Shown: positions 4,001 to 60,583 of the stretch, in pieces | How the letters are laid out: each line of letters opens with the position of its first letter | Numbering within the stretch: position 1 is the first letter of the stretch | NCBI RefSeq assembly: GCF_032362555.1 | Contig: NC_083507.1 | Span: 4,529,001-4,593,000 of the forward strand | Direction of reading: 5' to 3' | Length of the DNA: 64,000 nt | Source: Amyelois transitella | Lineage: Eukaryota; Arthropoda; Insecta; Lepidoptera; Pyralidae | The notes under the pieces: model-generated | What the model saw: only the letters and a program-made list of their open reading frames with translations | Database searches by the model: none | What the model was told of the DNA's origin: nothing | Translations under genes and position numbers: made by a program

Positions 4001-7000
4001 CGCTGTTACAATAATTATTTATATATTTATTATACGCTGTTAAATACATTAATAAAGCTGTGGCGAACATAAAACTAAATTAATGTTCACGAGAAACAAT
4101 ATTTAGATCTCCAAAATTGTAGTCCGTACAAAAAAAAAACAATTGCGGAAATTTTCATTTGACAAAATATTTAGCAACTAGCTTTACATAAAAACTTACA
4201 CTTTTTATTATAAAAGTGTAGTGTAGATCAATTTGGATTATATAAATTACTAGCTGTAGCCCGCGACTTCGTCCGCGTAACCCACACTAAAATGACGAAG
4301 TTTCATACAAACTTGCAACCCCTATTTCACCCCCTTAGGAATAGAATTTCCAAAAATCCTTTCTTAGTGGATCCCTCCTAATTAAAATCTACCTTCCTGC
4401 CAAATTTCATCTTTATTGGCTCAGTAGATTTCGAGATTTCGTGATTCCCAAGTGAGTGTTTTTCGCTTTTATATATATTAAATTGTTAAACTTATCAGAT
4501 TTATGATAAGTTTGAGTAAATTATTATAATCCTTTTCCCAACTTCAATAAATAAATAAACTTTCTTTAAAAATATTTTTAGTAACATAAGTATGTCTGTA
4601 ATAATATCTGTACTTTTAGCGTTTTGTGGTTATGTAGTTCCCGGTAGAAAACGGATGGCGAGCGGTAGCGGCCGCCCGCTGTGACACAGATTGGTTGAGC
4701 ACGGAGGCGGAGTGATTGCCTCCATGTGAACCATTGCCGATTTAATGTAATTATGGACTTAATTTACTAAAACATTAACACTTCATAAGTTCGAAATGTC
4801 TTGTCACAGTAGGTGAAACAAAAAATCAACAAAAATAGCTTTAAGAACGGGTTTTTGCCGTATTGGAAAATACGAACAAAAACCCGTTATCCTCAATCAT
4901 CGGATTGTATAAATGCATATAAGATGCAACTCATCATCTAGATGTTAAATTGAGGACAAATTAAATACAACTATTTTTTCTTTGTATCAAGTGCGTCATT
5001 CGTTAATTGCAGCATGCACAGAATTAGCGCAAAAAATGATTGAAGAACGCATATTCCAACCACGCTTCTTCTTCTCTCACGCACTTTGAATTAACCAGTG
5101 CGAAAAAAACGATTCTAAAAAGACAAAGCAGAATTTAAAACCATTTAGAATCGATAGCAATGACATCAGGGGTGTATTTACCCTAGGGCCAGAAGGGCTA
5201 TAGCCCGGGGCGGCAGGCCGCGAGGGGCGGCCCAGGGCTAGGGCTTTGGTTTGGAAGTTTGAAAAAATAAAAAAAATATTTTCAGACTTAAGCCTAGAAC
5301 GCCCCTGAGCCACCTTTCCACATGTTGATTTAATGTCTGAAGAAATTTGAAATTCAATTAAAGTATGAAAGCCGCCCCTTGTCTTGTGCGTGGATATCAT
5401 GTCTGGAGAAATTCGAAATTAATTGAAGTATGCAAGCCGCCCCTTGTTCTTTCCTGAACCGGTTGAACCGTCTATTTTTTTCCGCCTCGGTTTTTTTATT
5501 TTATGTCTGAAGCAAGTCTGAAGCAAAAAAAATAATTTTAGTATTTAGCCTAAGTCGCCTTGCGCAAGTTAATTTCTAGAAGTTCTAAAAGCAAATTAAT
5601 TTCTAGAAGTTCTAAAAAGGGCAGCACCTCTTACTTATCATTTGCAACATATGAAAAAATTATTAAAATTATGGCTGACAAAGTTACCGAAACAATAATT
5701 GAGCAACTACAAAAAGCCAAATACTTTTCTTTTAGTGTTGATTCTACTCCGGACATAACCCATGAAGATCAACTTTCTTTAATTGTGCGATTTGTTCAAG
5801 ATAATGCAGAACCAGTTGAACGTTTCCTTTGCTTTCTGCCAAATACTGGTCACAAAGCAGAAGACATGTTGCAAGCAATTTTGAAGACTTTTGACAAACT
5901 AAATATCGATATTGCCAATTGTAGAGGTCAGTCTAATGATAATGCAAGCAACATGTCGGGGCAGTATAACGGCCTGCAGGCAAAGATTAAAGAAAAATGC
6001 CAGTATGCAACATATATACCTTGCGCCGCACATTCCTTAAATTTGATCGGATCTTCAGCAGCTGAGTGTTGCCCAGAAGCTACAAAGTTTTTTGGAGTAC
6101 TGCAAAATCTGTACGTATTTTTTACAGGATCAACGGAACGTACAAAAATATTGCAAACATTTTTAACGGAACCTGAAAATGTAACCGTTAATAGTTTGTC
6201 ACATACGCGGTGGTCGGCAAGAGATGATGCTTGCTCGAGCCTGAATAAAAATTGGGAACAAATAATTAAAGCTCTGGAAGCAATAAAAAGTAACTCTTCG
6301 CAACAAAAAGCCTTAATCAAAAATGAAGCTACAGGTTTATTGGCTCAAAAAAAATTCAAAATTCAAAATTTTTTATTCATTATTATAGGATATTATTATA
6401 TCGCTTAATAATTGTCGTATGGTTTAACAACTTGGTTGACGTCAAATAAATTACTTAAAAACTAAGTTTACTGCCGCTTCCAAGGCGTCAGTGCAGAAGA
6501 AGCGGTAACAAACTGCACTGCAGCATTTTCTTCAACAACGTCAACTTCACAATATTAAATTATACTTAGAATAGAATATGGACGGGAGAATACATTGCTC
6601 ACGGGAGATTTATATATTTATGAGATTTAATATTGAAAAAAGAAATATATATATATATATATATATTTTATGGATTGCCAATTTTAAAAAGATTTATGTA
6701 CAGAGTGTACTGAAATTTTGATATAAGTTCAAATTAAACTACTGCTCAACTGAATTCCTTAGAAACAGCGATATTATCGGAATTCTGGGGATCAGTTCTA
6801 AAACAATTTAATACCGTTTCTAAAGTTTTGCAAGGTGTGGACACAAACGTTGAGGTAGTCTCCAACCTTTACGATTCCCTGATTACTTTTGTGAAAAATC
6901 AACGCGAATTATTCGATGCATTTGAAAAAGCTGGAAAAGAAAAGTGTACTGAAGATTACAAAGATAGCCGGAAAAGGATAACAAAAAGAAAAAAACGAGA

Positions 7001-10000
7001 CGATGAGCAACGCGAAGGAGAAGTAATTTTACAAGGACGGGACTATTTCAAAGTGAATACTTTTTTGCCAATATGCGACCAATTGTTGGGCGAGTTAAGG
7101 AGGCGTAAAACATCCTATGACGCTGTAACCGCAAAATTTGCATTTCTATCCAATTTAAGTACACTATCTGAGGCGGAAATTAAATTGAACGCATTATCAC
7201 TCCAAAAGTCTTATCCTACTGATCTTGCGGATGATTTAAAGGATGAATGCATACTATTAAAGAATTTTTTGCCGTCTCAGGGACAAGAAACTGAAACAAG
7301 TTTACGCGAACTAAACTTATTAATTAATAAAAAGGATCTGAAAGTGGCGTTTCCTTACATTGAAATTGCGTTGCGCATATTTCTTTGTACTGCAGTAACG
7401 AATTGTAGTGCAGAACGCTCATTTTCGGTACTCAAACGGTTAAAAAACTATTTAAGATCGCGTCTTATCGAAGAACGGCTTAATAATTTGGCAATTTTGA
7501 ACATCGAAGCCGATTTAACAAATAAAATTGATTATGACGATGTAATAAACGAATTTGTCAAAAATTTTGTCCACAGAAAAAAAATGTAAAATATAAAATC
7601 GATAACTTTTTTTTTTGTTTTCTTTCATTCCTTGATGGGGCGGAAAGCTGCAGGAGCCCGGAGCGCGCAATCTTAAAATACGCCCCTGAATGACATACAT
7701 AATTACAAGTGAAACCGTGTTATTGTATGCAACTATTTAAATTACATGACCAACAATAGCAAACGAAATGTACGTGTACCGACCGCCGAAGCGGCTCCAC
7801 AGATGTAATAAATACATATAATAGTGTTTAATCGAGGTGCATTGTCGGCCGTGATGTGGGAGCCGCCGACGCAAATGAATGACCAACTAATAGCCAGACA
7901 ACATTAGGTATCGACATACAAAGCGAGCGATGTTGGAAGCCGCCTCTGTTGATGAATTAAGAAAGTGATGTCTGTAGGTGGCATCAATCTTCGAATGTTG
8001 TTCGAATTAGTAGCAATATAGAAAGCGGAACTGGCGGTAATAATTTTGAATGTTTGAAAACAGCGAAACATAATAGAAAGTGACGGTAATGATTATGAGT
8101 ATAACGTTATGTAGTGAGACAGTTGATTAATATACATATATTATGTTGAGTTCATTTAAAAATTTATACACTTTATTCAAAAGTTGGTTATCCCACATTT
8201 GACTTATCGTCTTGATTTTTATTTAGATCTCCCTTCGATTCTTGGTGTGTTACTTGATTATTTATTCAGTTTATGTTCTCGACATAATTTACTGTGTTAA
8301 TGACACAATACATGAAAGTACACAGACTTAATTCAGTGAAATCTTTAGGACACTTCGAACAATCTTTATAAATAAAAACGAGGGAGCCGCATAAATTTTT
8401 TCCATACCTTTATTGCTGGATTAGGGACAATGTGTGACTTACCGTACATATTAGAACCCCATTTCTAGCGGCCCGGAACTGCTTAAACACTTCCATTCGC
8501 TGGTCGTGTGGCATCGACCCGTGAAGCCTGAACATTTCTATATCAACCGGAACTAAACCACCCTCAGATGGTTCTTCATAGTCTACTTCGAATTCCGACT
8601 CAGATGATGACTTATCCTAAAATTAAACAAGACACTGTACAACACCATAAAAAATATACAGCCACAAACAATTCTTAGTGAGTTCTTCTACTCTTTATTT
8701 TGTAGTCTCCTTTTAAGTAAAGTACCTACAGTATATCAGAAAATCAATCTCGTCCATATACGAGTAAATCTTGAATTGTGGTTAGTTAACCACAATTCAA
8801 GATTTACTCGTATAAGTGCTAAGTGGGTAGAAATTTTATCATTGTTTGTGTTATAATTATAATGTTATAATTACCTCATCATTTTTTCCATTGACTCTCT
8901 TTTTATTTGTTTTAGATTTCTTATCCTTCTTCTTTACTCTGACATTTTTACCAGTTAGTACAGTCTCAATCAACTCTGAATGATAATCCACCATTTCTAA
9001 TGTTGCCATGAAAACAATCATTTTACCACCTTTCTTGTTCAACACACAATGTTCCACAATATGAGAACAAAGCGTCACAAATCTTAGTTTCATTGGCACT
9101 ATAAGGAATGTCTGATTAACTGTTGCTGGTAATATTAGTTCATCTTCAACTATGGCAGTTTTGACAGCCTCAACAAAAGTGTTGCCCGTCTCAGCGGGCT
9201 TGATTACTTCTTCCTCTTCTTCTTTAAAGTCTACTACTTTACTTTTATCATCTAAGTCATTTTGAACTTTGAAATATTCGTAATCTGAATCACTGTCACT
9301 TTCTTCATGTTTTTTAGAATTGTTCGGTACTTGAACATTTGAAGTTTTATTTTCATTTTCAAACAATTCTGGATGATTAATTCCATTGAATGATTTTAAA
9401 CCTGCAAAATTACACATATTTTTAAACCTTTATTAAACAGATGTTAATGTAAAACCAAAATTATTATATTTTGGTATTAAATGAACACTCACCTCTTTTA
9501 GTTTGTTCAGATTTAGCGACTAAATCTTCTTTACCATTTTGACGAACCTCTTCCAATTTTTGAGGAACCGCTTTTATACTTTTATCTTTATTTAATGTTC
9601 TTACTGGTAAGTTTGCTTGAGCCAATAAATTTTCGCCATGATGGGGTTTAAGAGAATCAGCTACAAGTGCTCTACCTTCAGATGTATCCACAAATACAGG
9701 ATCCACCAAAGTGATTCCAGCTAAATTCTCTACAGCCTAAGAAATACATACAATTATCAATTTTGAAATAGAGGAAAAAATGCACAATACTATTATAAGT
9801 ACATAAAAACTTACTTTAGTAAGAGTTGCAGAAAGCAAAATAGTTTGCCTTTCTGTAGACATAAACACTTCAGTTAAATGATGTTTATAATTTGAGTTTT
9901 TCTGTTCATTAGAAACTTCTGCTTCTACAGTACTATTTTCATCGACTTTCCTGATACTCTGCTTGGCTAAAGCTAGTGGATCATATGTAGCAGCTTTTTT

Positions 10001-11965
10001 ATGATCCTGAATAGCTTTCACTATAGCTGCTACATCTTTTTCATAGCCCATATCTAATAATCTGTCTGCCTCATCTAAAACTAGGCAACTAAAACAAAAT
10101 AAAATAACTATTAGTAAGACAGCATTGTCAATATACTTAAGGGTGAGAAAGATGCACAAATGTTTTACATGATAAAAAGATAATTTTTATTAATATATAA
10201 CATAAAACTTACCCAGTTTTAGCAAAGTTCAAAGATTTTGTGTGTCTCAAGTGGTCATTTATTCTGCCCGGAGTTCCAACTAATATACTGAGTCCTTTTC
10301 TGAGCCTTGCTTTTTCTGCTTTTCGTTTTTGTCCACCACTCAACAAACCAGGCACAACCCAAGTAAAAGGCTGGCAACAAAAATTTTCTTAGATGAATTC
10401 CCATACTAAATATTAGTAACCAATAAACATAAAACATACTGCAATTTATCAATCAGTCGCTCCGTGACAACAGAACGCAACATGATTATAAACTTCCGAG
10501 ATATAGTAAAGTTATATGTTATGTGTGTGTTTAATGGCTCTAGTATTTATAATTAAAACTGCAATTTTTTATTTCACTCATATTCTGGTTGTTTCAGTAA
10601 AATCATTTCATTAAATACTTACAATAATTTAAATAAATAAATAAATAAATATATACGGGACAAATTACACAGATTGAGTTAGCCTCGAAGTAAGTTCGAA
10701 ACTTGTGTTACGAGATACTTACTCAACAATACTATATTTTATAATAAATACGTATATAGATAAACATCCAAGACCCAGGCCAATCAGTGAAAGTTCGTTT
10801 CTCATCATGCCCTGGCTGGGATTCGAACCCGGGACCTCCGGTGACACAGACAAGCGCACTACTGCTGCGCCACAGAGGCCGTCAAATTTTGTTGTGGTAA
10901 GGCAAGTAAAAATATGTATTCTGACACAAGTACTTTTATAATAAAATGTCACACTCCTAAGCCTTACCTTTACAAGTTTTACAAATAATTCATAAGTCTG
11001 CACAGCTAACTCCCGGGTGGGCACGACAACCACCACTCTGATGCCATCATGCCTGTTTAATTTTGGTCGTATTTCTTGTAACCCTTCTACTATTGGTAAG
11101 GCATATGCGAGGGTTTTACCTGAACCAGTCTGTGATCTGTGACAAATTATCAAATATTAAAAATTGAGAATGTTAACAATGTTGAAAATTGCAAATGGTA
11201 GTTGTTTGCGGTATAATATTTATATTAAGAAAATGTTATGAGGTTAACAGAGCCAACAGTTTAAAAAAACCTGAATGGCTACATACAGGGAAAAATGTTG
11301 TCTTTATCCATTACAAGAAAAAAATTTACCTGATCAATACATCTCTTCCCTGCAATATAATCGGAACAGCGTTTTGTTGAACTGTCATCAATTCTTTCAG
11401 ACTTAAATTTTGCTGCAAGTTAGCAACAGAGTGTGGATGAATATCTATATCTGCAAATGTTTTACCAGCAAATACTTTTTCTACTAAAGGCTTTACAGCT
11501 CGCTGGCCAATGCGAGGCACTTCAGGATTATTTTTAAATAATGATGAAATCCAACCTCCACTTCTAGGTTTATTTTGTTTGACTTGTAACTCATCATTGA
11601 TCTCTTGATAATTTTTGCCTTCATATTTGCCTTTATTTTCACTCAAATCTCTTAAATTAGAAGCCAAGTCTGGTTTATGGGATGTCTGTTCTGAGGATTT
11701 AAAAATTTTCTTTTGAGGCCCTACTTCGTCATTTTTGTGAACTTTATCAAACATTTGAGGTCTCTTTCTGGCTATAGTTTTTCCAGTGAACTTTTGTTTA
11801 GATGTAAATTTATATTCTGAAGCATTATTAGGAGTAACACTTGGTTTCTTGTTCACCTATAAAAATAAGAAAAATTGTTTAAATCTTGATTTATTTTACT
11901 TAATATTTACCAGTTTAGGAACTTACCTTCTTAAATGATGTAATATTAAGCTGTAAATCTTCCAT
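1033..11965 (-). CDS. DDX31: DEAD-box ATP-dependent RNA helicase, DDX31/Dbp7 type
   Basis: Thirteen exons: 11927-11965, 11330-11856, 10968-11136, 10213-10370, 9815-10088, 9493-9736, 8875-9401, 8443-8616, 3253-3341, 2843-2944, 2326-2477, 1541-1760, 1033-1162. All introns are GT-AG, phases match, and the product is 934 aa. Helicase motifs appear in order: SQTGSGKT (about 190-197), PTREL (228-232), VGTPGR (276-281), DEAD (303-306), SAT (384-386), DVAARGLD (705-712) and HRVGRTGR (733-740). The tail is Lys-rich and ends in KKKKKY. The N-terminal 150 residues are basic and charged. A charged insert (about 625-665, KKKDKKSK then an acidic Ser/Asp run) splits the second RecA domain. DDX31/Dbp7 proteins act in the nucleolus in 60S ribosome assembly; that role is inferred from family. 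The family call rests on the core and the C-terminal WVRFYSGYP region. Intron 8 (3342-8442) is enlarged by transposons. Confidence 0.93.
1768..2037 (-). repeat. Short interspersed repeat, family A, near full length
   Basis: Reverse-oriented copy of the most abundant repeat here. The family head reads gccgtgtggttcccggcacc and its end is a (TATG)n tail next to the motif ctaccccgcaaggga. It begins about 8 bp upstream of the acceptor side of helicase exon 12. Confidence 0.85.
3547..3700 (+). repeat. Family A repeat, diverged 3' fragment
   Basis: Carries the family's gggattctt, gctagcaa, actatttgaat and tatcccacaaggga blocks with many substitutions. It lies in helicase intron 8. Confidence 0.65.
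4245..4490 (-). repeat. Dispersed AT-rich repeat ('gcccgcgacttcgtccgcgt' type)
   Basis: The start, tactagctgt-agcccgcgacttcgtccgcgt, is a phrase common at the end of dispersed lepidopteran repeats. Related sequences in the opposite orientation end near 15455 and 44542. The transposon class is not settled from sequence alone. Confidence 0.55.
5560..7589 (+). pseudogene. hAT transposase (DUF4371 plus hAT dimerisation domain), interrupted
   Basis: Two open blocks. The first (about 5560-6348) gives the DUF4371-type catalytic region: [20 protein letters not shown], then [14 protein letters not shown] and [10 protein letters not shown]. The second (about 6744-7589) gives the C-terminal hAT dimerisation region with [20 protein letters not shown] and [12 protein letters not shown]. 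The blocks are separated by a nested repeat with a 6-bp direct repeat at its edges. The zinc-finger (BED or TTF) N-terminus expected in this family is not seen, so the enzyme was probably already incomplete before the nested insertion. Outside the insert the frames stay open, so the copy is not very old. Confidence 0.88.
6349..6743 (+). repeat. Nested dispersed repeat inside the hAT transposase
   Basis: About 395 bp interrupting the transposase, with gctcaa at 6343-6348 and again at 6744-6749 as a probable target duplication. A second copy lies at about 56800-57148. Both share ggttgacgtcaaataaatta and gcactgcagcattttcttca. It contains an (AT)n run at about 6644-6665. No coding capacity or tRNA-like promoter was recognised. 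Confidence 0.8.
8757..8814. repeat. Perfect 28-bp hairpin with 2-nt spacer
   Basis: Arms 8757-8784 and 8787-8814 are exact reverse complements, separated only by gt. It lies in helicase intron 7, about 60 bp downstream of exon 7. Confidence 0.95.
10628..10888 (-). repeat. tRNA-derived SINE
   Basis: Read on the minus strand it starts near gcctctgtggcgcagcagt (A-box-like), then ggttcgaatccc (perfect B box), a unique body, and ends in an (ATTT)n-type tail at 10628-10655. It lies in helicase intron 3. A second copy is at 14297-14530. Confidence 0.85.
11238..11290 (-). repeat. Family A repeat, very short fragment
   Basis: Only the cagagccaacagt block and a degenerate neighbour remain, in helicase intron 2. 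Assignment is tentative. Confidence 0.4.
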
Positions 11966-41452: not shown

Positions 41453-42571
41453 ATGAAATACGGGTTTACTTCATATCGCCTACTAATTTTATTAGCATTT
41501 TTGTTTGGATATATATGTCTGTGTGCTAGTGAGAATGTTAAGAAAAGCATTGATGATCTGCAAGATGAAAGTAATGAAGGTAACGATGATACAAAGGAGT
41601 CATTAGATATAATGCCAGAAAATGAGAATACTGAACAAATAAATAGTAATAGTAACAACAGCAATAACTATAACAGTAACGAAAATGACAGTAATAATAA
41701 AAACAATAATTCCACAACATGCACTAGAAGAGCAAATTCTCAGATGCACGAGATACTTACAGCAAACCACAAACAATTCCCTTTTATGGCAGCTATTATG
41801 TCCCACCAGAATGACTATTTGTGTGCTGGTTCTGTGGTATCGAATGGTGTAATCTTGACTTCTGCAGAGTGTTTACAAAAGCCTGTCAATTATGTCCTGT
41901 TGAATACTACTAAAGCTAAAAAAGAAGATACTGCTGTTATGCTGTACATTAAGAATCGCGAAAAATTTCCTTCATTTGCCGGAAGTCGTGGAAAGGATAT
42001 CGGTATTATTTTCACAGAAAAACATAACAACAGTGTGGCGTCAAAAATCAAATTAAGTAACATGACAAGTTTAAAAGGTCTTACAGATTTTGAAGGTCTT
42101 GGTTACGGTTTGAATACTGAAGTTAATCAAATAAAAGAGTTACAATATATAGGGGTAGAGTATCGTCCATTTGAGGATTACCCTGATTTATTGGAGGGTT
42201 ACTTTGATTGCGTTGATACCAAAATCCCTACTTGCTTTAAAGATTTCGGTGGACCAGCAATTTTTGATAATGAATTAATAGGAGTTATTAGCTCCGGTCA
42301 AAATCAATGTACTAGTGAAATGTCTTCAAAGTATGCTGTAAGCAAGAAATTGGTAAGAGTTGTGCCTACCTACTCTTTTAAAGCTTGGCTAGAGGAGAAA
42401 ATTGCAAAAGTTGAAGAGAAGCAACCTGCGGCACTTGCGACATATCCCTCCCAACCTGCAGTCAATAACGTTACTAGTAAGCTGACCAGTCATTTGCACA
42501 ACAAAGGAGAAGGATACAAGCCCTCTGCTTTCCTATTTATAGTTTTTATTATAACTTTAATTGATATGTAA
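41453..42571 (+). CDS. Secreted trypsin-like serine protease homolog, probably inactive and GPI-anchored
   Basis: Intronless, 372 aa. A signal peptide (about 1-25, LILLAFLFGYICLC) is followed by an acidic stretch and an Asn/Ser-rich low-complexity run (63-87). The protease-like domain starts near residue 105: FPFMAAIM, LCAGSVVSNGVILTSAECL, KDIGIIF, TCFKDFGGPAIF and LIGVISSG. The usual catalytic His (TAAHC) is Glu139 and the catalytic Ser (GDSGGP) is Phe265; only Asp182 of the triad remains. It should therefore act by binding, as serine protease homologs (clip or non-clip) do in immunity or adhesion. The C-terminus ends in a hydrophobic stretch with almost no cytoplasmic tail (AFLFIVFIITLIDM), which suggests a GPI anchor. 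Substrate and partners are unknown. Confidence 0.88.
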   Translation: MKYGFTSYRLLILLAFLFGYICLCASENVKKSIDDLQDESNEGNDDTKESLDIMPENENTEQINSNSNNSNNYNSNENDSNNKNNNSTTCTRRANSQMHEILTANHKQFPFMAAIMSHQNDYLCAGSVVSNGVILTSAECLQKPVNYVLLNTTKAKKEDTAVMLYIKNREKFPSFAGSRGKDIGIIFTEKHNNSVASKIKLSNMTSLKGLTDFEGLGYGLNTEVNQIKELQYIGVEYRPFEDYPDLLEGYFDCVDTKIPTCFKDFGGPAIFDNELIGVISSGQNQCTSEMSSKYAVSKKLVRVVPTYSFKAWLEEKIAKVEEKQPAALATYPSQPAVNNVTSKLTSHLHNKGEGYKPSAFLFIVFIITLIDM

Positions 42572-55035: not shown

Positions 55036-56047
55036 ATGAATATACCATTTCCAATATTAACTCCACGGTTAATAGACTCAAAATGGTTTAATGCAGATAG
55101 CCCGTGCGATGAAGAACAAGAACTGTCGGCGTTAGAACAAGAACATCAGCAATGGGTAGGTGTTGTGGCGTACTTCTTACAATATTTTAGTACTAGCTTT
55201 TGCACAAAGCTTCCCGTCTGTGGGAATTTCCATTAAAAGTTCTCTTCTATCTCTGTGCTAAATTTCGACAAAATCTGCTGTATTTATTGGTTTCTAACAA
55301 TAAAAAATCTTGTGACATTATCTGTAAATGGCAAACACCTTCTCTTGCCTCCTCACACTTTAAATAATTTAATAATATATTATAAAAATGACTCTTATTC
55401 AAGTTTTTGGTTGTAGCTAAATTCAATTGGGCAGCAGTATATGAAGCGTGCTCCACTTGGCAAAACTGACCCAGAACCAATGGAAGAAGAAGCAGACACT
55501 GACGAGGAGGAAGGTAAACATATGAGTGAAAATATATTTCTCATTGTGCCATAAATAAAAAGAGATGCATTAAGTTATTGCACCTGTTTGTTTAGGTTAA
55601 GGTCATAGTAAAAGGTCTATAACAGAATGTCCTGTATCCTGTACTATGATTTAAGATTGTAGAAACATTGGGTGGTTGATTCAGTAGGAATATCAGAAAA
55701 GTAACTTTTCAGGGCACATTTGTTATAATAGTAGTATTTCCAGATAGATAAATAATTTTTTTTTGGAAATGATATCCCTATCTCATCTCTGGTGTTCTCC
55801 CCCCTTCACCATAATGTTTTGGGGCCTGGAGTGCTTTTCTACATTTTTCTTCCATTTGTTTTCTTTTTAAGGAAATGATGAATCAGATGAATCGGAGGAA
55901 TCCCATGATGAGGATGAAGAAGAAGAGCTCAGGACTTCATATTCCCCTGCAAGAAATAACAATGAACTTGAACCTGACAGTTTAGATGATCTCAATGATG
56001 CACCTGACCCGGACTTGATTGCATCTGACCAGAGTGCTATGTATTAG
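55036..56047 (+). CDS. ANAPC15: Anaphase-promoting complex subunit 15
   Basis: Exons 55036-55155, 55417-55513 and 55872-56047 join in phase to 130 aa (human APC15 is 121). The N-terminus MNIPFPILTPRLIDSKWFN, then ADSPCDEEQELSALEQEHQQ and WLNSIGQQY, aligns with the human [20 protein letters not shown] / EE-EL---EQ-HQ-WL-SI pattern. After a short GK motif the protein is strongly acidic (EEEADTDEEE, DEDEEEEL) and ends LIASDQSAMY. APC15 promotes release of the mitotic checkpoint complex from the APC/C ubiquitin ligase; that role is taken from the family. The start at 55036 gives the family N-terminus; no upstream in-frame ATG was needed. Confidence 0.92.
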
Positions 56048-57148: not shown

Positions 57149-57328
57149 AATTCATTACAAGGTTCCTGTGCCAAGCTCAAGCCAGATGTTTGAAACAATT
57201 GTGATGAAATTTGTTACAGCGATAGAGTTTACCCTGAGGAAGAATAAAGGCTACTTTTTATTGCATGAAAAGAAACCATGAATAAGCAGTCGCAGGCATA
57301 AACTAGTTTATCATTCATTCATTCATTT

Positions 57329-57563
57329 AGTCACATCGATATCCCTTGCAGGGTAGACAGAGCCAACAGTCTTGAAGAAACTGATAGGCCACATTCAGCT
57401 GTTTGGCTTAACAATAGAACTGAGATTCAAATAGTGGCAGGTTGCCTAAAATAAGCATCCCAAGTTATCATAAGCAAGTAAAGTTTATATAAACTTATCC
57501 GTTTGTTGCCTTTTACGAGTGGTCCTATTCTTTTTTATATTAGTGCCATGAACCACACGGCAC
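57329..57563 (-). repeat. Family A repeat
   Basis: Reverse copy with tatcccttgcagggtagaca, cattcagctgtttggcttaa and a nearly complete head (ccatgaaccacacggcac). It lies just downstream of the Tag gene. Confidence 0.85.
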
Positions 57564-57631
57564 GCCATTAGCTAGTCTGTTATATTTATGAAAAAATATT
57601 AAGAAAATTTGAAAAAAATAAAATTTATTAA

Positions 57632-58204
57632 CTATTTTCGGCTTAAACAATATATTAAATGGTCATTTACTAAACCACAAGCTTGCATGAAAGCATAACA
57701 AGTTTTAGCACCCACAAATTTGAACCCTCTTTTTTTTAAAGCCTTGGAAAGTTCATGAGACTTAACACTTTCAGCAGGAATATCTCCTGCATGTTTCCAA
57801 TGATTCAAAATAGGGTTGTAATTGACAAAACTCCAAACAAATTTTGAAAAGTCCTCTTCATCACTTTCCATTTTTAAATAACATTTGGCATTGTTAATTA
57901 TGGCATTAATTTTCCCCTTGTGTCTCACAATCTCTGAATTCAACATCAGATTATTGATATCATTTTCTGTTAGGTTTATTATTTTATGAGGATCAAAATT
58001 AAAAAATAACTTTCTATAACTTTGTCTCTTTTTCAAAATAGTAATCCATGAAAGTCCTGCTTGTTGTCCTTCTAAGCAAATCATTTCAAATAAACGAAGT
58101 TTATCACGCTCAGGTTTACCCCATTCTTCATCATGGTATTTAATATAAATTGGATCTTGAGAAACCCATCCACATCTGATAAAATTCTCTTCTTTAACTT
58201 TCAT
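57632..58204 (-). CDS. tag: DNA-3-methyladenine glycosylase I, bacterial type
   Basis: Single exon, 190 aa, ATG to TAG, no frame breaks. It closely follows E. coli Tag: RCGWVSQDPIYIKYHDEEWG, then LFEMICLEGQQAGLSWITIL, FVWSFVNYNP, SKALKKRGFKFVGAKTCY and AFMQACGLVNDH. The zinc ligands of the family are present (Cys11, His24, His182, Cys186), as are the base-pocket Glu45 and Trp53, so the enzyme should be active. Tag excises 3-methyladenine from alkylated DNA to start base excision repair. This family is standard in bacteria and known in plants, but is not the usual animal enzyme (animals use MPG/AAG). The gene lies between lepidopteran repeats and insect genes and is as AT-rich as its neighbours. 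An A-rich poly(A) signal region follows the stop (about 57615-57630). Horizontal transfer is the likely origin; no signal or mitochondrial presequence is obvious. Confidence 0.95.
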   Translation of the reverse strand: MKVKEENFIRCGWVSQDPIYIKYHDEEWGKPERDKLRLFEMICLEGQQAGLSWITILKKRQSYRKLFFNFDPHKIINLTENDINNLMLNSEIVRHKGKINAIINNAKCYLKMESDEEDFSKFVWSFVNYNPILNHWKHAGDIPAESVKSHELSKALKKRGFKFVGAKTCYAFMQACGLVNDHLIYCLSRK

Positions 58205-58807: not shown

Positions 58808-58867
58808 AATCCAAAATCAATATTAAGTTTCAATTGGTTAATTGAAACGTTATATTGATTTTGGATT
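58808..58867. repeat. Hairpin 1 of 3, 16-bp outer arms
   Basis: aatccaaaatcaatat pairs with atattgattttggatt; an inner stem gttycaatt/aattgaaac follows after a 3-nt internal loop. Confidence 0.9.
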
Positions 58868-58872
58868 CCCTT

Positions 58873-58923
58873 GCGTCCCTTGCCCCCTTCTCACAGGGTT
58901 CCGTGAGAAGGGGCAAGGGACGC
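58873..58923. repeat. Hairpin 2 of 3, 21-bp arms, one bulged base
   Basis: gcgtcccttgcccccttctc at the left pairs with gagaaggggcaagggacgc at the right except for one extra c; the loop is about 8 nt. Confidence 0.9.
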
Positions 58924-59189: not shown

Positions 59190-59245
59190 GAGACTGTTGG
59201 CTCTGTCTACCCCGCCCAGGAACGTGGACGTGATTATATGTATTT
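59190..59245 (+). repeat. Family A repeat, tail fragment
   Basis: ctgttggctctgtctacccc followed by a degraded gggaacgtggacgtgattat tail. Confidence 0.65.
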
Positions 59246-60049: not shown

Positions 60050-60583
60050 ATGATTGCCACTTTGTCCGTTCTCATAACCTATCTCGCACGTATCATTGCT
60101 AACTCTCTGCCGGCCTTTATGATGGCGGAACCACGTGAAAGAACTTTTATCATGATAAAACCAGATGGTGTCCAACGTGGGCTGGTCGGGACTATTATCA
60201 AACGCTTTGAGAAGAAAGGCTTCAAGTTAGTAGCCCTCAAGTTCATGTGGCCATCTGAAGAACTCCTCAAGAAACACTACAGTGACTTAGCATCACGACC
60301 TTTCTTCCCCGGTCTCGTGAAATACATGAATTCTGGCCCAGTTGTTCCAATGGTATGGGAGGGACTTAACGTTGTGAAGACTGGTCGCCAAATGCTGGGC
60401 GCTACAAACCCAGCTGATTCTCAGCCAGGCACCATTCGCGGTGACCTGTGCATCCAGGTTGGTCGTAACATTATCCATGGGTCCGATAGTGTTGAAGCTG
60501 CCAATAAGGAAATCTCACTTTGGTTTACCGAGAAAGAGCTTGTTGGTTGGTCACCAGCTGATGAGAACTGGGTTTACGAATAA
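60050..60583 (+). CDS. awd: Nucleoside diphosphate kinase (awd/NME family), N-terminally extended frame
   Basis: Intronless. From ATG 60050 it is 177 aa; the usual 154-aa protein starts at ATG 60119 ([10 protein letters not shown]), and ATG 60122 has the best start context (A at -3, G at +4). Conserved blocks: [55 protein letters not shown] and the active-site NIIHGSDS (His143 in the long form). The enzyme passes phosphate between nucleoside tri- and diphosphates through phosphohistidine and forms hexamers. The 23-residue extension [20 protein letters not shown] is hydrophobic and reminiscent of the NME3 N-terminus. An in-frame stop at 60020 closes the frame upstream. AATAAA lies near 60682. 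No introns, unlike many awd genes; a functional retrocopy is possible, though the sequence is fully intact. Confidence 0.95.

Follow-up and report, generated by a model that had tools for sequence, protein, structure and literature searches.

An intact bacterial-type 3-methyladenine DNA glycosylase gene in a likely lepidopteran chromosome, probably acquired by horizontal transfer

Introduction

The transfer of bacterial genes to animals is already known as a kind of event, and the survey of Li et al. 2022, reportedly the largest carried out on insects, is said to include genes of bacterial origin from Lepidoptera. Among repair enzymes, a parallel is offered by the 3-methyladenine glycosylase (MAG) of land plants, which we take to be a member of the Tag family. 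Passages of PMC5570899 and of the review PMC12448838 describe the transfer of the MAG gene from bacteria to the ancestor of land plants, and the case in PMC5570899 is likewise one of a bacterial 3-methyladenine glycosylase gene in a multicellular eukaryote; it differs in concerning the plant lineage, as an event separate from that of the insect Tag. Another parallel is found in bdelloid rotifers, for which passages of PMC6264785 report the foreign repair genes AlkD, Fpg, UVDE and LigK. These are also animals that gained excision-repair enzymes, one of which, AlkD, deals with lesions of this type, and the passages give MPG as missing from them; the protein families, however, are other than Tag, which the passages do not name. 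In Lepidoptera, bacterial genes have settled in moth and butterfly genomes (PMC3252269, PMC5704228, PMC11837612), as in the present case. The term methyladenine was not found in the main texts of PMC11837612, PMC3252269, PMC5704228, PMC13342648, PMC13320244, PMC3116507 and PMC13389597, and full-text literature searches, taken at the level of titles and abstracts, returned no report of a Tag or 3-methyladenine glycosylase transfer to an insect; one paper retrieved mentions N6-methyladenine, and that in its reference list alone. It is quite possible that an insect tag has been listed before, for instance in the survey of Li et al. 2022, and our statement is limited to an insect Tag not being found named in the literature searched.

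The window analysed here is a stretch of 64,000 nucleotides (positions 4,529,001-4,593,000 of contig 3) from a genome of 327,366,114 bases in 33 contigs. The original prediction, made from the letters of this stretch, was of an intact bacterial-type tag gene in an insect genome, and this core observation is confirmed overall. The reading that we hold with good confidence is that of an intact bacterial-type Tag in a likely lepidopteran chromosome, which was likely passed on horizontally by a bacterium that belongs to Enterobacterales or stands close to that order, and which is predicted to excise 3-methyladenine from the host DNA.

The gene and its protein

The frame of tag is open throughout its 190 codons, from ATG to TAG, in both the list of open reading frames and the sequence. 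On searching the product against Pfam, the only family obtained at E ≤0.001 was PF03352 (Adenine_glyco / Methyladenine glycosylase), which matched over profile positions 1-175 of 177 with an E value of 2.3e-77, which leaves no room for a chance match, and 259.3 bits against a curated cut-off of 25 bits; the protein is therefore not a member of the MPG/AAG family (PF02245). The cut-off of the NCBIfam model TIGR00624 (tag) is also passed (253.3 bits vs 232.5), while that of NF007678, the narrower equivalog of the E. coli type, is not reached (277.3 bits vs 349). The solved structure 1lmz, which we take to be E. coli Tag, aligns without a gap to residues 10-187 of the window protein at an offset of 7 (254 bits). 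It was thus borne out by two family models and a structure-bearing sequence that the 190-aa product follows E. coli Tag. From the ungapped offset of 7, residues C11, H24, H182, C186, E45 and W53 correspond to C4, H17, H175, C179, E38 and W46 of 1lmz. All six are invariant across a 20-row Tag alignment, in agreement with the claim that the four zinc ligands and the Glu and Trp of the pocket are kept; here we presume C4, H17, H175 and C179 of 1lmz to be the zinc ligands and E38 and W46 the pocket residues. It may be noted that PDB entry 4ai4 is titled as the E38Q mutant form of Tag from S. aureus. An AlphaFold model of the window Tag (pLDDT 91.2, pTM 0.87) superposes on the crystal structure 2ofk with a TM score of 0.93 and an rmsd of 0.8 Å, so that a helix-hairpin-helix fold of the Tag type is predicted. 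Since the input of the model was a Tag alignment, the fold does not count as evidence separate from the family assignment. Compared with bacterial Tag (PF03352, TIGR00624; PDB 1lmz, 2ofk, 4aia), the window protein therefore shows homology over the whole length, about 60% identity to the Enterobacterales forms, and the same zinc-site and pocket residues and predicted fold. It differs from bacterial Tag in residing in an animal chromosome and in an N-terminus 7 residues longer than that of 1lmz, and from the E. coli-type Tag in missing the NF007678 cut-off.

Relatives and search for a source

When named genomes of bacteria and archaea were scanned, at least 586 stretches were confirmed as matching Tag. 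The best 80 of these are all from Enterobacterales (59 Enterobacteriaceae, 17 Morganellaceae, 3 Erwiniaceae and 1 Yersiniaceae), and the highest identity among them is 64%, in a Providencia genome. In a search of 5.8 billion protein sequences with residues 102-150 of Tag as query, we found the window protein itself and one further protein, P0002; residues 104-150 of P0002, used as query in turn, led to P0003. Over 181 aligned residues, P0002 and the window Tag agree at 120. Both P0002 and P0003 have one member each, on short contigs of 1,873 and 4,387 bases. P0002 has a match in 336 of the 394 sampled genomes of the order to which Providencia belongs, with a best identity of 64% among the matches listed, and P0003 has one in 42 of the 44 genomes of an AT-rich family (genomes of 1.3-3.1 Mb, fetched loci with 34-41% G+C) at an identity of 61% or less. 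In genome size and G+C this family resembles Orbaceae, which live in insect guts, and might tentatively be assigned there. Among the matches listed, none exceeds 64% identity to the window Tag, and so a close bacterial copy was not seen. The transfer may be old, the donor may lie outside the genomes sampled, or the gene may have changed fast once transferred. As to a possible vehicle, a search of viral contigs gave 2 pattern matches with 0 confirmed, and the 18 phage and 119 plasmid records that match Tag do so at an identity of up to about 61%; a viral, phage or plasmid carrier is hence not indicated.

Selection, age and composition

The best surviving alternative to a maintained and probably working gene is that tag was transferred but is an idle passenger, inserted fairly recently, whose frame has not yet decayed. 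We regard this as unlikely. To see what an open frame is worth, we refer to a neutral simulation of 1,000 runs per level starting from the present tag sequence, in which the fraction of runs without a stop was 37% at 95% protein identity, 16% at 90%, 6.5% at 85%, 3.4% at 80% and 1% at 75%. At the first two levels intactness is therefore weak evidence against a passenger. On the other side, the 64% ceiling for bacterial relatives among the matches listed lies below even the level at which only 1% of the runs stay open, all six active-site and zinc residues are kept, and the gene would be old if either P0002 or P0003 comes from an insect. Intact frames would point to selection over a long time should P0002 be an insect gene, an argument that falls should it be bacterial. 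The maintenance of tag in the host lineage is in this way supported only indirectly.

We also asked whether base composition shows how long tag has resided in the host. The GC3 of tag is 0.237. Four host stretches read in frame, ANAPC15 exon 3 not among them, give 0.25, 0.26, 0.30 and 0.47 (two of these stretches are open reading frames taken to be exons), and the Tags of four AT-rich bacteria give 0.24-0.28. The measure does not separate the host from an AT-rich bacterium and was set aside. The amino-acid make-up of P0002 and P0003 is AT-biased, as in both the insect and the bacterial candidates. Sites of the sigma-70 type number 12 against a mean of 5.1 in shuffled sequence (sd 2.7), an excess that carries no meaning where the DNA is AT-rich. 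Upstream of tag, a run rich in pyrimidines ends in AG 26 bases ahead of the ATG and is a candidate for the end of a spliced 5′ leader.

Phylogenetic placement

Three trees were drawn, of 78, 96 and 94 rows, in which the window sequence is the only row known to be eukaryotic. The 78-row tree was taken from 118 rows after leaving out one duplicate and 39 Enterobacteriaceae. For the 96-row tree two long rows (L082 and L085) and 10 of 30 new rows, which were near-copies, were left out. For the 94-row tree, 9 more Enterobacteriaceae were removed along with 19 distant rows, and so were 3 of the 29 rows newly drawn from the AT-rich family, for which only 30 of the 42 matches had loci; two of these three omitted rows come from genomes already present, and the third genome (G373) is hence absent. 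The window Tag, P0002 and P0003 form a clade in all three trees, with supports of 99/96, 100/94 and 99/98 in the 78-, 96- and 94-row trees. In the 94-row tree this clade and 78 Enterobacterales rows (the named ones together with further genomes of the order of Providencia) are separated from 13 other gammaproteobacterial rows at 100/100. The position within this union is less definite. AU tests did not reject a tree in which the 78 Enterobacterales rows are a clade of their own with the window clade outside (p 0.33), nor the joining of the window clade with the AT-rich family (p 0.45) or with 16 rows of the Morganellaceae type (p 0.44). Also not rejected was the placement of P0002 and P0003 with the AT-rich family and of the window Tag apart from them (log-likelihood lower by 12.2, p 0.22). 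As to the donor, the clade stood next to three rows from small AT-rich genomes in the 96-row tree (98/88, bootstrap not settled), a union that was lost when their 44-genome family was sampled more densely.

The check by relatives and tree thus upholds the predicted transfer in part: the closest named relatives are Enterobacterales, to which the clade is joined at 100/100, while a position outside the order is not rejected by the AU test at p 0.33. As judged from these comparisons, the source would likely be a bacterium belonging or close to Enterobacterales, a relative of gut bacteria such as Providencia. It is a decidedly improbable reading that the gene is an ancient Tag of eukaryotes or arthropods which passed down by vertical descent and disappeared from most insects. 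Passages of PMC5570899 do report homologues in metazoans, fungi and protists, and the window Tag is the one row of known eukaryotic origin in the trees, but the identity of about 60-64% to Enterobacterales together with the union at 100/100 fits a bacterial source better.

Chromosomal setting

The Tag protein is recorded in the protein database on a contig of 13,257,997 bases, and a profile search of the whole genome with PF03352 found tag as its sole match, such counts being lower bounds. The features around the gene are given in Table 1.

Table 1. Features at and around the tag locus (positions within the window)
Feature	Position	Strand	Remarks
tag ORF, 3-methyladenine DNA glycosylase I	57632..58204	minus	190 aa, intact
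ANAPC15 exon 1	55036..55155	+	
ANAPC15 exon 2	55417..55513	+	
ANAPC15 exon 3 with stop codon	55872..56047	+	
NDP kinase coding sequence	60122..60583	+	PF00334 E 2.3e-57; divergent from tag
Dispersed host repeat	57325..57570	+	most other copies align up to ~57564
AATAAA hexamer, possible poly(A) signal (putative function)	57624..57629	minus	two bases past the tag stop codon
25-base repeat fragment	59191..59215	minus	96% match, opposite orientation, to the repeat at 57348-57372

The three-exon ANAPC15 on one side of tag is identified by PF15243 (E 1.1e-32), and with the PF00334 match on the other side and the open frame between them, the description of an uninterrupted gene between ANAPC15 and NDP kinase holds. 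The repeat that was said to border the gene is indeed a dispersed repeat of the host genome, which we presume, from the repeat itself and the shape of the assembly, to be lepidopteran: a first look gave 3,486 candidate copies genome-wide, and scoring 40 of these listed 50 matching pieces over many contigs. Therefore tag is very probably integrated in the animal chromosome, as had been proposed, on the basis of its contiguity within the assembled 13.26-Mb contig and in the company of host genes and a host repeat. That bacterial DNA was misjoined into an animal contig during assembly is scarcely believable: the related P0002 and P0003 do sit on short contigs, but here only some 70 bp separate the edge of the host repeat from the end of the tag frame, host genes flank tag within about 2 kb on each side, an AATAAA follows the stop codon, no bacterial gene lies beside tag among the listed ORFs of at least 90 aa in the window, and no close bacterium was found among the matches listed, so that contamination is judged very unlikely.

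Repair of alkylated bases in the host

It had been assumed that animals normally remove 3-methyladenine with MPG. This part of the original prediction needs correction, as MPG is not universal in invertebrates: in Table 1 of PMC6264785 human carries the mark for it, whereas Drosophila melanogaster and C. elegans do not. In an exon-by-exon profile search of the present genome, the MPG family PF02245 gave 0 candidates and 0 matches, with a control set that was prokaryotic and matched in 3 of 14 cases, so that a divergent MPG could be missed. The same search found one match each for PF01035 (MGMT type) and PF00730 (HhH-GPD), and 6 for PF13532 (AlkB type), 4 of these over the cut-off; it can therefore see repair families in this genome. 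Since PF02245 is without a candidate, Tag may supply a missing activity instead of doubling one that the animal already has.

Taken together, tag reads best as a gene that came by horizontal transfer and probably works, in a lineage without detectable MPG. In the mechanism that we infer, tag would be expressed and its 190-aa product, which could diffuse into the nucleus, would be active there. An alkylated base would be bound in the pocket that Glu45 and Trp53 line, the bond between base and sugar would be cut as in ordinary monofunctional base excision, and the abasic-site repair of the host would complete the job. As no MPG was found, we propose Tag as the dedicated 3-methyladenine glycosylase of the animal, which would act beside the AlkB-type and MGMT-type enzymes. 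A further step, which we offer only tentatively, is that MPG was first lost in an insect lineage, which then regained 3-methyladenine repair through a Tag from a gut-type bacterium, and that related species may keep it as P0002 and P0003. If tag is expressed and active, a bacterial base-excision enzyme would have been gained for a lesion that the genome seems unable to excise via MPG. If true, this would provide a testable case of a lost DNA-repair step restored by horizontal transfer, and also a warning against assuming mammalian-style repair of alkylated DNA in insects.

Other features of the window

Between tag and the NDP kinase gene, at 58808-58867, there is a near-perfect inverted repeat with 28-base arms that are 93% complementary and a 4-base spacer, after which a G+C-rich palindrome was found by eye at about 58872-58922. 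At 5560-7589 on the forward strand, two adjacent ORFs resemble pieces of one hAT-type transposase (DUF4371 with E 3.9e-11 and the hAT dimerisation region with E 1.9e-8). The only Rfam match over its gathering score within the window is a tRNA-like stretch at 10808-10879 on the minus strand (31.1 bits against a gathering score of 29), perhaps part of a SINE. Also, an open ORF of 372 aa at 41453-42571 on the forward strand carries a trypsin-like domain (PF00089, E 2.5e-14) behind an Asn-rich stretch.
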